Source: Poriferisphaera corsica
GTDB taxonomy: Bacteria; Planctomycetota; Phycisphaerae; Phycisphaerales; Phycisphaeraceae
Direction of reading: 5' to 3'
Assembly: GCF_007747445.1 (NCBI RefSeq)
Contig: NZ_CP036425.1
Coordinates: 620,001-684,000, forward strand
Length of the DNA stretch: 64,000 nucleotides
The notes beneath the pieces are model-generated. The model was not told where the DNA came from, did no database searches, and saw nothing but the letters and a program-made list of their open reading frames with translations. Positions 42,782-47,823 of this stretch are shown in pieces (within the stretch, counting starts at the first letter, position 1; every line of letters begins with the position of its first letter). The position numbers were made by a program, and so were the translations under genes.

Positions 42782-43660
42782 TTAGCTATTTATATCTTCT
42801 CGCGGCAACCGAATCGCAAAATCCGTTCCTCTTCCTGCCTCCGCATGAACTAATAGCTCGCCGCCATGCTCTTCCGCAATCCTCCTCGATGTCGGTAGCC
42901 CCAAGCCAGACCCGCCTCGTTTCGTCGAAAAGTATGGCTCAAACACTCGCTTCATCACTTCATCACCAATCCCCGGCCCGGTATCCGTCACATGTATCGC
43001 TAGCCCTTTTTTACCCGACACTTCTTCATTCTCTGTTCGGATCATCAACTCGCTTGCTCCGCCATGATCTCCGCCCTTCTCCTTGGCTTCCGTCATCGCC
43101 TGAACCGCGTTGATCATCAAATTTAACAACGCCTGCTTCAGCAGCTTTCCGTCAACACTAATCTCACTTGGCTTCGCCAAAAGCTGCGTCCGCAAATGCA
43201 CCCCACATTCCTCCGCTTGCGGCCCAAAAAAATCCACGAGTTCTTCAATCAGTGCATGAACATCTGTCTCTGCCGCTTCTAGCTTCATCCGACCCGCAAA
43301 ACGCAAAAAATCCTCCAAGATGTCTTTCAATCGCTGTGTTTCTCTCCCTAATGCACCAAACACTCGCTGTACCCGCGCAATCTTGTCGTCCGTCTCCATC
43401 CCGCTTGGCAATTCGCCGACCAGATCATCCAAATCTTCATGAAGTAATTGCAAGTTCAAACCAATGGTCGATAGTGGGTTTTTGATCTCATGCGCAAGCC
43501 CGCTTGTCATACGGCCCATTTCCGCCAGCCGCTCGCTACGCCTCACTTGCTTCATCACCTCGCGCGTTTGTTTATTCGCACGCAGCGATAATTGCCGCGC
43601 CACCGCTCCCATTAGCAGCACGCCAAGCACGAATCCAATTGTCAGCCATAGCATTATCAT
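42782..43660 (-). CDS. Membrane-anchored sensor histidine kinase
   Basis: This 292-residue kinase has one N-terminal membrane helix (residues 2-20) directly followed by a linker and the dimerisation/H-box (His57 in Leu-Ala-His-Glu-Ile-Lys-Asn-Pro-Leu-Ser). The ATP-binding domain has the N-box (Leu-Met-Ile-Asn-Ala-Val-Gln-Ala-Met), the G1 box (Asp-Thr-Gly-Pro-Gly-Ile-Gly), an F-box and the G2 box (Gly-Gly-Ser-Gly-Leu-Gly-Leu). It lacks a sensing domain, so it senses through the membrane or a partner. The start at 43660 is preferred to 43741, because the extra N-terminus would overlap a structured element. No response regulator is adjacent. Confidence 0.88.
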   Translation of the reverse strand: MIMLWLTIGFVLGVLLMGAVARQLSLRANKQTREVMKQVRRSERLAEMGRMTSGLAHEIKNPLSTIGLNLQLLHEDLDDLVGELPSGMETDDKIARVQRVFGALGRETQRLKDILEDFLRFAGRMKLEAAETDVHALIEELVDFFGPQAEECGVHLRTQLLAKPSEISVDGKLLKQALLNLMINAVQAMTEAKEKGGDHGGASELMIRTENEEVSGKKGLAIHVTDTGPGIGDEVMKRVFEPYFSTKRGGSGLGLPTSRRIAEEHGGELLVHAEAGRGTDFAIRLPREDINS

Positions 43661-43710
43661 CCCAAAAGCATAACCGCAATCACTCAGACCGTCATGCCCA
43701 TATCCATCGC

Positions 43711-43842
43711 CTCTAGAGCAAGTTGCATCATGACGTGCCACATGTTCAGCGAAACAATCGGAAGCAGGCTCCTGTGATAAGCGTTTTTTACCAAACAGCC
43801 CACTGGTTAACGAGGCAAGTCATTTCGCAAGACGCCCTAGAG
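43711..43842 (-). ncRNA. Candidate structured RNA, copy B, in front of the histidine kinase
   Basis: This is the second copy of the element at 27455-27584, on the minus strand. It shares identical runs of 20 bases (43752-43771) and 24 bases (43713-43736) with copy A. The ends pair well: CTCTAGGGCG with a distal TTGCTCTAGAG, then TTGC with GCAA beyond a 2x2 loop. Unlike copy A it has no terminator after it. It ends about 50 bases before the histidine kinase start and could be a leader element for that gene. A transposable-element origin is also possible. Confidence 0.5.
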
Positions 43843-43861
43843 TCTTCGCGATGAGCGCATA

Positions 43862-43884
43862 ACAAAACCCCTCCAGAGGGGGCT
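43862..43884 (-). terminator. Minus-strand terminator between two structured elements
   Basis: On the minus strand CCCCTC pairs with GAGGGG around a two-base loop and is followed by TTTTGTT. No protein gene ends just upstream. The transcript it stops would be the folded element at 43929-44030, which supports a short separate RNA. It also insulates copy B from upstream transcription. Confidence 0.65.
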
Positions 43885-43928
43885 TCTCATGAATCCACTG
43901 TTAACAATTTAAAAAGAAATGAAAAGTA

Positions 43929-44030
43929 AGCATGCGACAGATTGAAAAACTACCACATACAGGAATATATCCTGTTCGCGAGATCGATAAGCCGCTCTCA
44001 TAGCGGTACATCTTTCACCTGTCGCATGCT
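43929..44030 (-). ncRNA. Candidate folded RNA with a 12-bp closing stem and two inner hairpins
   Basis: The arms 43929-43940 and 44019-44030 (AGCATGCGACAG and its complement) form a perfect 12-bp stem. Inside are two hairpins: 43959-43975 (6-bp stem, 5-base loop) and 43992-44006 (5-bp stem, 5-base loop). A further TGAAA/TTTCA pairing can extend the closing stem. A terminator follows on the minus strand at 43862-43884, so the minus strand is the likely sense. The class is not recognised; ribozyme and common riboswitch cores were not found. Confidence 0.5.
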
Positions 44031-44462
44031 CACACATTCTGCAACATTGCATGGGTGGTGTATTAAGTAAAACGTATGACCACATTGATGCTTCTCGTCT
44101 TTTGGTAAACCAAAAGTCAATCGCCAAGCATGCACTCAAAAATGCTCTCGCTGCATGTCGTTCATGGACAATGACAGCTCTGAAGAAGCAAATTCTCGTA
44201 TCACGCTTCAATGCAGCGTCGTTTTGTCAATACACTGTACCGAAAATCTCTCATCATTGATCTCGCTTCGCTCTCGCCAGTGTTCGCGCTCTCCCGAACA
44301 AATCAATCTCGCAAAGCTCGTCAATCAATCATGATTTTGATATTCAGCACATTAAAGCAATATGCCCCTGATCCCCCGATCATCATTTAGTCAAAACCAC
44401 TTTGCTTCGCGGTTTATCACGACCAAATCACAACCCTAAAGATCAAGCCTCATCCAACATGA

Positions 44463-44687
44463 CTACTGAGCAGCAACCTTTTCTTTTGCTCGCTCAACAG
44501 TCCGAGCCTGCCAGCCTTTATCTGACTCGACCAGCTCATAGTCCACTGCCTCGCCATCCTTCAGCGAACGGAAACCGTCACCCTGAATTTGGCTGTAGTG
44601 AATGAACACGTCTTGACCCTCTGGGCCATGAATAAATCCATAGCCTTTTTTAGGGTCAAACCACTTTACCTGACCACGAGTTGACAT
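44463..44687 (-). CDS. Cold-shock domain protein
   Basis: This 74-residue cold-shock domain protein binds single-stranded RNA or DNA and helps to melt RNA structure. RNP1 is visible as Lys-Gly-Tyr-Gly-Phe-Ile (residues about 14-19) and RNP2 as Asp-Val-Phe-Ile-His-Tyr-Ser (26-32). Trp9-Phe10 and the C-terminal Lys/Arg-rich end match the CspA family. A GAGGAG site lies about 9 bases before the ATG. The long AT-rich upstream region may give a long 5' leader, as in other csp genes, but no cold box was identified. The exact csp paralogue is not determined. Confidence 0.93.
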   Translation of the reverse strand: MSTRGQVKWFDPKKGYGFIHGPEGQDVFIHYSQIQGDGFRSLKDGEAVDYELVESDKGWQARTVERAKEKVAAQ

Positions 44688-45484
44688 AGCATAAGTCTCC
44701 TCATGAAGGTCACAGATCTTCAGCCAGCCGCGGTACTTATACGTTTAAGTTAATGTGCACTCATTGTCGAAATGCCGTCACTACTCGCATGCAAAGATCT
44801 ACTCGTGAAATAGAGAGGAATAATCTGCAACTTGCGACCCTCGGAACAACTTAATCCGTACTCAAGCAGCACCACACCAAGTGAATAATCCGTGCCTCAA
44901 CAAGATGCTGGACTTTGAAATGAACCAGCACATCCCCTTTGAGGGATATCCCCGCGATCATAACATCGGCCGATCGCAATGGCCTGCACAAACCCACGTT
45001 TGCGACTTCTTTGTGTCCAACTTCTACAAACTAAAACGTTCACTCTCTTTCGAAATTTGCAAACGTCTTCGCCGAAAAGCTAAACACTACATGCATTTCA
45101 ACAATCTCACTATACATCCTTTTACATTTTGAAAAAAGAGGAATTTCTTGTTTCTTGCTTAAAGTGCCAATCTACATGGCACTCTTAACCGATATTACTA
45201 TCCTTTTTATGCACATTTTTGCTAACTTTATCGTTTTATCCCCCTTTTTCATCACAACTTGATCATTAAAAAACATTTTGTGATGCAGATTTTTGCTGCT
45301 TTTTAACCGCCCTAAATGAGTTCTATTAAAAATGCAATGACTCTTTTTGTTAATAACGTTGTCTCAGTCTTATTCTTAAATACCCCTACTTTTATTAACT
45401 CTTATGTATGTTCTAGAACGGATGCATGTAAGCTTACACTTAGTATTCATACGTGATGACGCGCCAACTTCTTTTTTGACTCAA
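44688..45484. other. AT-rich region between csp and the pnp terminator
   Basis: This stretch of about 800 bases becomes strongly A/T-rich after 45130. It must hold the csp promoter and 5' leader near its left end. A plus-strand frame at 44881-45132 has no ribosome site and was not accepted. No RNA gene or repeat was recognised in the rest. Confidence 0.4.
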
Positions 45485-45516: not shown

Positions 45517-45552
45517 CATCTAACTTTCAGTTAGTCACTAACTAATCAATGA

Positions 45553-47823
45553 TTAGTCTCTGCGGCCACCACCACGGTTTCCACCGCGATCGCCACCACG
45601 ACCACCGCCGCCACCGCGACGATCACCACCACGGCCACCACCGCCGCCACGACGATCACCGCCGCCATCACGTGACTTGCCGCTGCTCACGACTTCTTCT
45701 TGGACGCCTTCTTCGTCAAGCACTGCCTTGCGGCTAAGCTTCACGCGACCCTGCTCGTCAATGTTAATCACCTTAACACGGACTTCATCGCCAACCTTCA
45801 CAACATCCTCAACGTTGTCAACGAAACCGTTTGACAACTCAGAGATGTGGCAAAGACCGTCTTGGCCAGGAATCACTTCAATAAAGGCACCAAAGTCGCG
45901 AACGCTCGAAACCTTACCGTTATAAAGAGCGCCAACTTTGACCTCTTCGCACAGTTTTTCGATTTCTTCCAAAGCCTTCTCAGCCTTCTCGCCGCCGACC
46001 GAACTGACGATCACAGTGCCGTCTTCTTCGATCTCAATCGTCGCGCCGGTATCAGCTTCCAATGCACGAATCGTCTTGCCGCCAGGGCCGATCAGCTTGC
46101 CGATCTTATCTGGATGAATCTTCGTCGTTAGCAGACGTGGTGCGTGTTCGGAAAGCTCGCCAACCTCAGGCTGTGCTTCTTCGATCTTCTCGATAATCTG
46201 AATACGATTCTTCTTCGCAAGCTCAAACGTCTTCGCGATCTGATCCATATTCAAGCCACGAATCTTAAGGTCAAGCTGGATCGCCGTGATACCTTCACGT
46301 GTACCCGTCACCTTAAAGTCCATGTCGCCAAAGTGATCTTCTTCACCTTGGATGTCTGTCAGGTAAATATCTTCCTGGCCTTCTTCATCAGCTTGGATCA
46401 AACCAATGCTGATACCGCCAATCGCTGCACTCAGTGGTACGCCCGCATTGAGCAATGCCAAACAGCCGCCACAAGCCGAAGCCATGGAGCTAGAACCGTT
46501 GGATTCCATGATGTCCGAGACCAAACGCACCGTGTATGGGAAGTCTTCCGGCTCAGGCATCACAGGCATCAATGCCTTCTGTGCCAGCATGCCGTGACCA
46601 ATCTCGCGGCGGCCAGGGCCCATGATACGCTTCGCTTCACCAACACTGAATGGAGGGAAGTTGTAGTGCAGGTAGAATTTTTCGCTGTACTCTTCGCCGA
46701 GACCATCGATGATCTGCTCTGCTTTGGTTGTACCCAAAACAGCGGTCACCAATGCCTGAGTCTCGCCGCGAGTGAACAGGCCAGAACCGTGAACGCGTGG
46801 CAGAAGGCCCGTTTCACAGTCAATATTACGGAGTTCATCAAACGTACGGCCATCGGTACGTGAGCCGCTGCGGATAATCACGCGTGTGATGTCTTCTTCA
46901 AGGTCGTGGATCGCGTTCTTCGCCATCTTGAAGTCGCTCTTCCACTTGTTGTAGACACCAACGCCAGCATCATCAGCAGGCTCTGGGAAGCTTTCAGCCA
47001 AGAAGTTCTTAGTCGCTTCTTTGACGGCTGCGGAGCGGTCAGCTTTGTCGCCTTCCGTTGTTTTTGCAGCACGAAGCCCGTCGCCGAACTTCGCGACGAT
47101 TTCTTTAACTTCTTCACTGATTGAAGGTTCTGGAATGATCTTCTCTTTACCGCACTTGGCAACTAATTCGTCGATCATCTCCACGACCTGCTTGACGTAG
47201 CCGTAGCCGAATTCAATGGCTGTGAGCATTTCGTCTTCTGGGATTTCATATGAACCGACTTCGATCATGTTCAAGCCGTCTTTGTGACCGCAGAGCAGCA
47301 TGTCTAGGTCGCTGTACTCGTCTTGTGCAACGGTTGGCATGATGACGAGTTCGTCCTCAACGCGGCCGACGCGGACGTTACCGACAGGGCCTTGGAAAGG
47401 AACTGAACTAATGGACAGTGCAGCACTTGCAGCGATGCCCGCGAGTACGTCAGGCTCGTTTTGGCCGTCGTATGCGAGAACCCAGCACTGGATCTGTACT
47501 TCGTCGTGGTAACCCTTGGGGAACAGCGGCCGAATTGGACGGTCGATGTTACGCATCGTGAGGATTTCTTTTTGGTTTGGAGCGCCTTCACGCTTACGGA
47601 AACCGCCTGGGAATTTGCCAGCTGCGGATAGTTTTTCGCGGTAATCGACGGTCAGTGGGAAGAAGTCGATGCCTTCGCGGGGGTCAGCGTGTACAGCTGT
47701 GCCGAGAACGATGGTTTCGCCGTATTGGACGAGGACGGAGCCGTCAGCTTGCTTGGCGATCTTGCCAGTTTCGATGCTGAGCGTTCTTCCGCCGATTTCC
47801 ATTTCTACGCGGTGTAATGCCAT
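45553..47823 (-). CDS. pnp: Polyribonucleotide nucleotidyltransferase (PNPase)
   Basis: This 756-residue phosphorolytic 3'-5' exoribonuclease forms a trimer and acts in RNA decay. It has two RNase PH cores (about 1-230 and 330-560, with Phe-Pro-Gly-Gly-Phe-x-x-Arg-Glu-Gly and Ile-Met-Gly-Pro-Gly-Arg-Arg-Glu-Ile-Gly-His-Gly). A KH domain follows (Ile-Gly-Lys-Leu-Ile-Gly-Pro-Gly-Gly-Lys-Thr-Ile), then an S1 domain. The last 40 residues are an added Arg/Gly-rich RGG tail, an RNA-binding feature not found in E. coli PNPase. The promoter is distant; about 930 bases separate it from the rpsO terminator. Confidence 0.97.
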   Translation of the reverse strand: MALHRVEMEIGGRTLSIETGKIAKQADGSVLVQYGETIVLGTAVHADPREGIDFFPLTVDYREKLSAAGKFPGGFRKREGAPNQKEILTMRNIDRPIRPLFPKGYHDEVQIQCWVLAYDGQNEPDVLAGIAASAALSISSVPFQGPVGNVRVGRVEDELVIMPTVAQDEYSDLDMLLCGHKDGLNMIEVGSYEIPEDEMLTAIEFGYGYVKQVVEMIDELVAKCGKEKIIPEPSISEEVKEIVAKFGDGLRAAKTTEGDKADRSAAVKEATKNFLAESFPEPADDAGVGVYNKWKSDFKMAKNAIHDLEEDITRVIIRSGSRTDGRTFDELRNIDCETGLLPRVHGSGLFTRGETQALVTAVLGTTKAEQIIDGLGEEYSEKFYLHYNFPPFSVGEAKRIMGPGRREIGHGMLAQKALMPVMPEPEDFPYTVRLVSDIMESNGSSSMASACGGCLALLNAGVPLSAAIGGISIGLIQADEEGQEDIYLTDIQGEEDHFGDMDFKVTGTREGITAIQLDLKIRGLNMDQIAKTFELAKKNRIQIIEKIEEAQPEVGELSEHAPRLLTTKIHPDKIGKLIGPGGKTIRALEADTGATIEIEEDGTVIVSSVGGEKAEKALEEIEKLCEEVKVGALYNGKVSSVRDFGAFIEVIPGQDGLCHISELSNGFVDNVEDVVKVGDEVRVKVINIDEQGRVKLSRKAVLDEEGVQEEVVSSGKSRDGGGDRRGGGGGRGGDRRGGGGGRGGDRGGNRGGGRRD

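Follow-up and report, generated by a model that had tools for sequence, protein, structure and literature searches.

Bacterial trans-acting small RNAs (sRNAs) encoded between genes are 100-250 nt long, have a stable fold and a terminator-like end, and are found over a narrow phylogenetic range. In two further types of RNA the molecule is closed by a stem formed from both ends: 6S RNA (RF00013), where this closing helix is long, and YrlA and the Y-like RNAs, where it holds a variable interior. The spacer between the csp (cold-shock) and sensor histidine kinase genes of the marine planctomycete Poriferisphaera corsica contains a folded element that can be set beside these RNAs. The stretch analysed, referred to as the window, has 64,000 nucleotides and corresponds to bases 620001-684000 of the 4,291,168-base genome; positions are those of the window. 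Like the trans-acting sRNAs the element, a candidate RNA, is intergenic, folded, narrow in range and followed by a terminator-like end, and it is a conserved structured intergenic element on one strand, as judged from two species and with a plus strand that also folds well in the window copy. It differs from them in its long closing stem and in the large gap in interior length between sister species. Going by position, fold and conservation, we have moderate confidence that it is a single-copy small structured RNA, of approximately 140-200 nt in the genome of the window, read from the minus strand of this spacer, restricted to the genus and acting in trans.

The second copy of the element is in ZRK32 (CP066225.1), the sole other Poriferisphaera genome in the comparison, whose strain is called Poriferisphaera heterotrophicis in PMC10945688. 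It was first seen in a DNA search of 61 genomes as a 28-base match (E 0.0027) approximately 1 kb upstream of the orthologous kinase gene, which is the closest relative of the window's kinase gene and 73% identical to it. The order of the ZRK32 locus is csp, element, a P-loop kinase gene and the histidine kinase gene. In its full extent common to both species the element spans 43919-44060 on the minus strand of the window and 2405-2668, also minus, of the ZRK32 locus (L048), in the region around 3,447,100-3,447,500 of CP066225.1. This extent is given by two colinear patches in a spacer that is otherwise poorly alignable and by a match of 109 bits to model R1, which was made from the copy in the window and a ZRK32 copy shortened by hand, and so includes part of what it detects.

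Identity with a known class of RNA was sought. At gathering score Rfam 15 has no match in the 64 kb window, and at E values up to 10 the five matches between 43600 and 44800 all lie off the element. The ribozyme mentioned as a possibility in the initial annotation found no support: the Rfam scans gave no match to a known ribozyme model on the element and nothing else speaks for one. 6S RNA shares the closing helix; the fold of the window copy, in contrast, has no large open central bubble, and RF00013, a model that rings in five of 14 control genomes (four of them over cut-off), has no match in the P. corsica genome, and this identity was rejected on both counts. The Y-like RNAs share stem and variable interior, and were rejected because the element has no Rfam match and the partner protein Ro60 (TROVE, PF05731) is not found in the window's genome; ZRK32 has one match to it. 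A retron RNA was also discarded, the immediate flanking genes being CSD and HisKA/HATPase, and in ZRK32 also AAA_33, none of which is a reverse transcriptase.

The outer stem described from the letters of the window is indeed present as a perfect 12-bp helix, with its 5' arm at 44019-44030 and its 3' arm at 43929-43940 of the minus strand, both evident as an exact inverted repeat and in the fold. The arms are 78 bases apart and the element takes up 102 bases in all. Four places in the 64 kb, the element among them, have inverted repeats that match exactly over 12 bp or more and are spaced by no more than 120 bases; at the other three the 12-base arms are just 4-18 bases apart. The minus-strand fold of 43925-44036 has an energy of -55.7 kcal/mol (z -8.65), far beyond chance and equalled by none of 200 shuffles. 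Of 6390 segments of 112 bases, taken from both strands across the 64 kb, two match or beat this fold, and both, with 65 and 72% GC, are found at the end of pnp (45541-45672). Among the 1942 segments with 38-48% GC the lowest energy belongs to the one over the element, the runner-up reaching -46.2.

Two further hairpins had been proposed inside the stem, and one of them stands. P3 (43959-43975, minus strand, 6 bp) is nearly constant in the minus-strand fold, with pair probabilities of 0.93-1.0. P2 (43992-44006, minus strand), by contrast, is absent from the minus-strand minimum of the window copy, where its probability is approximately 0.01 and forcing it costs 2.6 kcal/mol; it does form in the plus-strand fold of the same copy. 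Its four C-G/G-C pairs are identical in ZRK32, where the sequence CCGC/GCGG is kept.

Conservation of the stem in relatives, a test set beforehand, was found within the genus, in ZRK32, while no homologue was found beyond it. Comparison of the two spacers gave one patch at 44059-43992 (71 columns, 73% identity, 32.8 bits) and another at 43947-43920 (28 bases, 89% identity, 38.3 bits), which share order and orientation between the species and represent the two RNA ends plus flanks. Out of 300 shuffled spacers 283 gave any alignment, the best with 29.2 bits, and the next alignment of the real spacers has 23.8 bits. The 5' tail, the 3' flank and the outer stem are kept in ZRK32 while most of the spacer sequence no longer aligns. 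Twelve bases of the 5' tail (44048-44059, minus strand) are identical in the two species and may serve as a seed or a promoter-proximal box. The 5' patch alignment carries three single-base gaps, and the patch is therefore probably not coding.

In the outer helix 13 consecutive modelled pairs hold in both species, and one of them differs on both sides, from C-G to U-A. Two one-sided A-U/G-U changes, one within these 13 pairs, leave the bases able to pair on the minus strand but not on the plus strand. Deeper inside, both species have G opposite A at one position, and the window copy has an A-C mismatch at one modelled pair. The covariation count, obtained with two sequences, is reached by 250 of 500 shuffles and is not significant. 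Between the 13-base arms lie 74 bases of interior in the window copy, as against 189 in the ZRK32 copy.

The argument for the strand leans mainly on ZRK32, because the plus strand of the window copy folds well too; the latter reaches -42.0 kcal/mol (z -6.38, none of 200 shuffles), which is weaker than the minus strand and still strong. In a 231-base stretch of ZRK32 the minus strand has a z of -6.52 as against -2.26 for the plus strand, and with 779 bases of context the pair probability is 0.91-1.0 for all 13 outer-stem pairs on the minus strand, falling to 0-0.63 on the plus strand. The window copy, folded with 606 bases of context, has 12 of the 13 outer pairs at 0.98-1.0 and the last at 0.49 on the minus strand, with 11 of the 13 still at 0.99-1.0 on the plus strand. 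We read this strand bias in the predicted folds as suggesting selection on a minus-strand RNA. The folded minus-strand RNA of the initial annotation is in this respect borne out as a candidate RNA, the fold being strong in both species and the element conserved between both genomes of the genus.

Searches with R1 returned the same two genomes each time: two of 51 in the family, two of 301 in the order and two of 397 in the class, these sets overlapping. The searches of order and class scored just 10 and 7 candidates per genome, respectively, and stricter filters apply to searches of more than 40 genomes; as the larger searches are less sensitive, weak matches in order and class may be lost. 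When R1 was run unfiltered on 18 kinase loci of other genera nothing convincing was found, the best hit having 10.2 bits (E 2.1). In the DNA search 31 of the 61 genomes have a match at E 1 or better; beyond the own genome and ZRK32 these are short matches with E 0.028 or worse. In a separate search, the one that also gave the 24-base match discussed below, matches at E 0.0027-0.1 in three genomes (G002, G045 and G018) align to the interior of the ZRK32 copy. The fetched loci were scanned for the stem and tail motifs, and among the weak matches L010 (G051) alone was examined closely; it lies inside a coding frame and was rejected as a chance match. Each genome has one element. Of the two rows that R1 gave for ZRK32 the second overlaps with the first; a 24-base match at another site of that genome (L160) was rejected as a second copy, since it is within a long open frame and misfits the model. 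A search of phages and plasmids gave no match to the element, and the two stretches picked up by a pattern scan of viral contigs were discarded, neither of them matching R1.

The upstream gene csp encodes a cold-shock domain protein (44463-44687, minus strand, PF00313). In other genera a csp is found near the kinase gene in 10 relatives, all of them among the 18 loci searched with R1, and in nine of these (leaving out L037) the csp stop is 53-278 bases from the aligned kinase start. It would appear that Poriferisphaera gained the element, by origin within the genus or by acquisition, between two genes that had been close before. A separate observation concerns the 5' leader of csp (44693-45010, minus strand), which shares 76% identity with that of ZRK32 over 330 columns, while with an E limit of 1 no counterpart appeared at the remaining loci of the family that were compared; it is possibly a structured cold-shock leader.

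The signals expected for a transcription unit are less clear than the fold. A terminator-like hairpin with T-run lies at 43858-43881 of the minus strand (hairpin 43881-43868), at the place past the stem where the initial annotation had put a terminator. The hairpin itself is there, but the site is weak: its T-run is interrupted, the terminator scan found two sites of this kind against an expectation of 0.8 (sd 0.7), and nine of 200 shuffles fold equally well, or 70 of 200 when upstream context is included. On the minus strand of the ZRK32 spacer the terminator scan found none; a bulged hairpin before seven T, noticed by manual reading, is equalled by 36 of 200 shuffles. The promoter scan has no minus-strand site in the spacer of either species, and one plus-strand site in that of ZRK32 (L048 2101-2130). 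If the element is an independent sRNA, its transcript would begin within the approximately 400 poorly conserved bases after csp and would end at a terminator 45-100 nt beyond the stem, with the closed stem protecting the RNA. Action in trans would most likely occur by pairing via the conserved 5' tail (ACCACCC...) or, alternatively, through a protein bound at the conserved interruption of the stem (GGUGRAA / UUUCAAUC). With the cold-shock gene beside it, a condition-linked role is a possible function.

The main rival to an independent sRNA is that the element belongs to the csp mRNA as its 3' end. The mRNA would then have a long 3' UTR, closed by a stem-loop that stops exonucleases, and a 3'-UTR-derived sRNA might later be cut out of it. 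We consider this doubtful. In its favour, csp is on the same strand, in both species its stop precedes the conserved tail by approximately 400-440 bases, and the scans of the two species list no minus-strand terminator-like site in the stretch from csp to the element. Against it, approximately 400 poorly conserved bases between stop codon and element would be long for a 3' UTR, and R1 finds nothing at the loci of other genera where csp and the kinase gene are close.

The histidine kinase gene downstream (42782-43741, minus strand, PF00512 and PF02518) lends itself to another explanation, in which the element is a cis-acting leader, either riboswitch or attenuator, of the gene that follows. The element precedes a gene of the same orientation and a terminator-like hairpin comes next, which is the arrangement of a leader; however, by reading, the outer stem and the terminator share no arm, a MITE-like repeat intervenes before the kinase, and in the two copies known the downstream gene differs, being a histidine kinase in the window and a P-loop kinase in ZRK32. 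It is on this last ground that a riboswitch or cis leader was rejected and that cis-regulation of the kinase is unlikely; as a whole we regard a leader as improbable. A functional tie to the histidine kinase finds no support either in the 18 kinase loci of other genera, where R1 gives nothing convincing, or in ZRK32, where the P-loop kinase gene intervenes. This gene (AAA_33; L048 1473-2120, minus strand), located between the RNA element and the histidine kinase, is present in two of 41 genomes, ZRK32 included, and was not found in the genome of the window. As just one other of the 41 genomes has it, ZRK32 probably acquired it.

The repeat that precedes the kinase gene, copy B (43714-43839, minus strand), is a dispersed 126-bp MITE-like repeat, bounded by imperfect terminal inverted repeats of 26 bases, and is separate from the RNA. 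It starts, as was noted from the letters, just past the terminator, approximately 20-30 bases further on. The family has 19 matches in the own genome, this copy included and some of them partial (further copies L051-L068), while ZRK32 has one partial match at another site. In the consensus, for which 15 matches were aligned and the four partial ones omitted, the terminal inverted repeats agree at 18 of 26 positions (none of 5000 shuffles) and TA is present at both ends. An IS630-type transposase (PF13358) as parent was not found in the genome of the window. The longest frame of the histidine kinase starts inside copy B; the automatic annotation may for this reason be too long by the extension 43660-43741, and the true start, going by the ZRK32 frame, is probably an inner ATG near 43660. 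The arrangement of two RNA-like elements in tandem looks coincidental, explained by insertion of copy B, whose MITE-like family is dispersed over the genome with 18 further matches.

A mobile nature could be considered for the stem-loop as well, that is a DNA element instead of an RNA, either an inverted-repeat mobile element or a protein-binding cruciform with conserved arms. Conserved arms and flanks around an interior of variable length, together with good pairing of the window copy on either strand, would suit DNA. Copy B is present in many copies, as a MITE would be, whereas the stem-loop is found once per genome; moreover the changed pairs favour G-U on one strand, ZRK32 is strongly structured on the minus strand only, and conservation reaches past the arms on both sides. 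A DNA element is in our view very improbable.

It is hardly credible that the element encodes a small protein, for although the window has a 36-codon frame from 44011 behind AGGUGAAAG, a Shine-Dalgarno-like stretch, this start codon is absent from ZRK32, the listed short ORFs have no common frame, the conserved patch contains single-base gaps, the overlapping 100-aa frame (43909-44211, minus strand) has no Pfam match, and the minus strand over the ZRK32 homologue has no ORF of 60 aa or more.

A small structured RNA acting in trans remains the reading we prefer. A more far-reaching version of it, which we think unlikely, would see in the element a new class of structured RNA, made at the Poriferisphaera csp locus and linked to cold or stress, in which the conserved closing stem and 5' tail would be the functional core and the interior, with its 74 or 189 bases, an expansion segment. 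A literature search by title gave, among the matches listed, no title on small RNAs in the class Phycisphaerae. For ZRK32, strand-specific RNA-seq is publicly available (PRJNA768630 and PRJNA694614, named in PMC10945688), and a candidate that is strongly folded and present once per genome, in a genus that is cultivated and has such data, could readily be confirmed. If confirmed, the element would be one more lineage-specific sRNA, of modest general interest.
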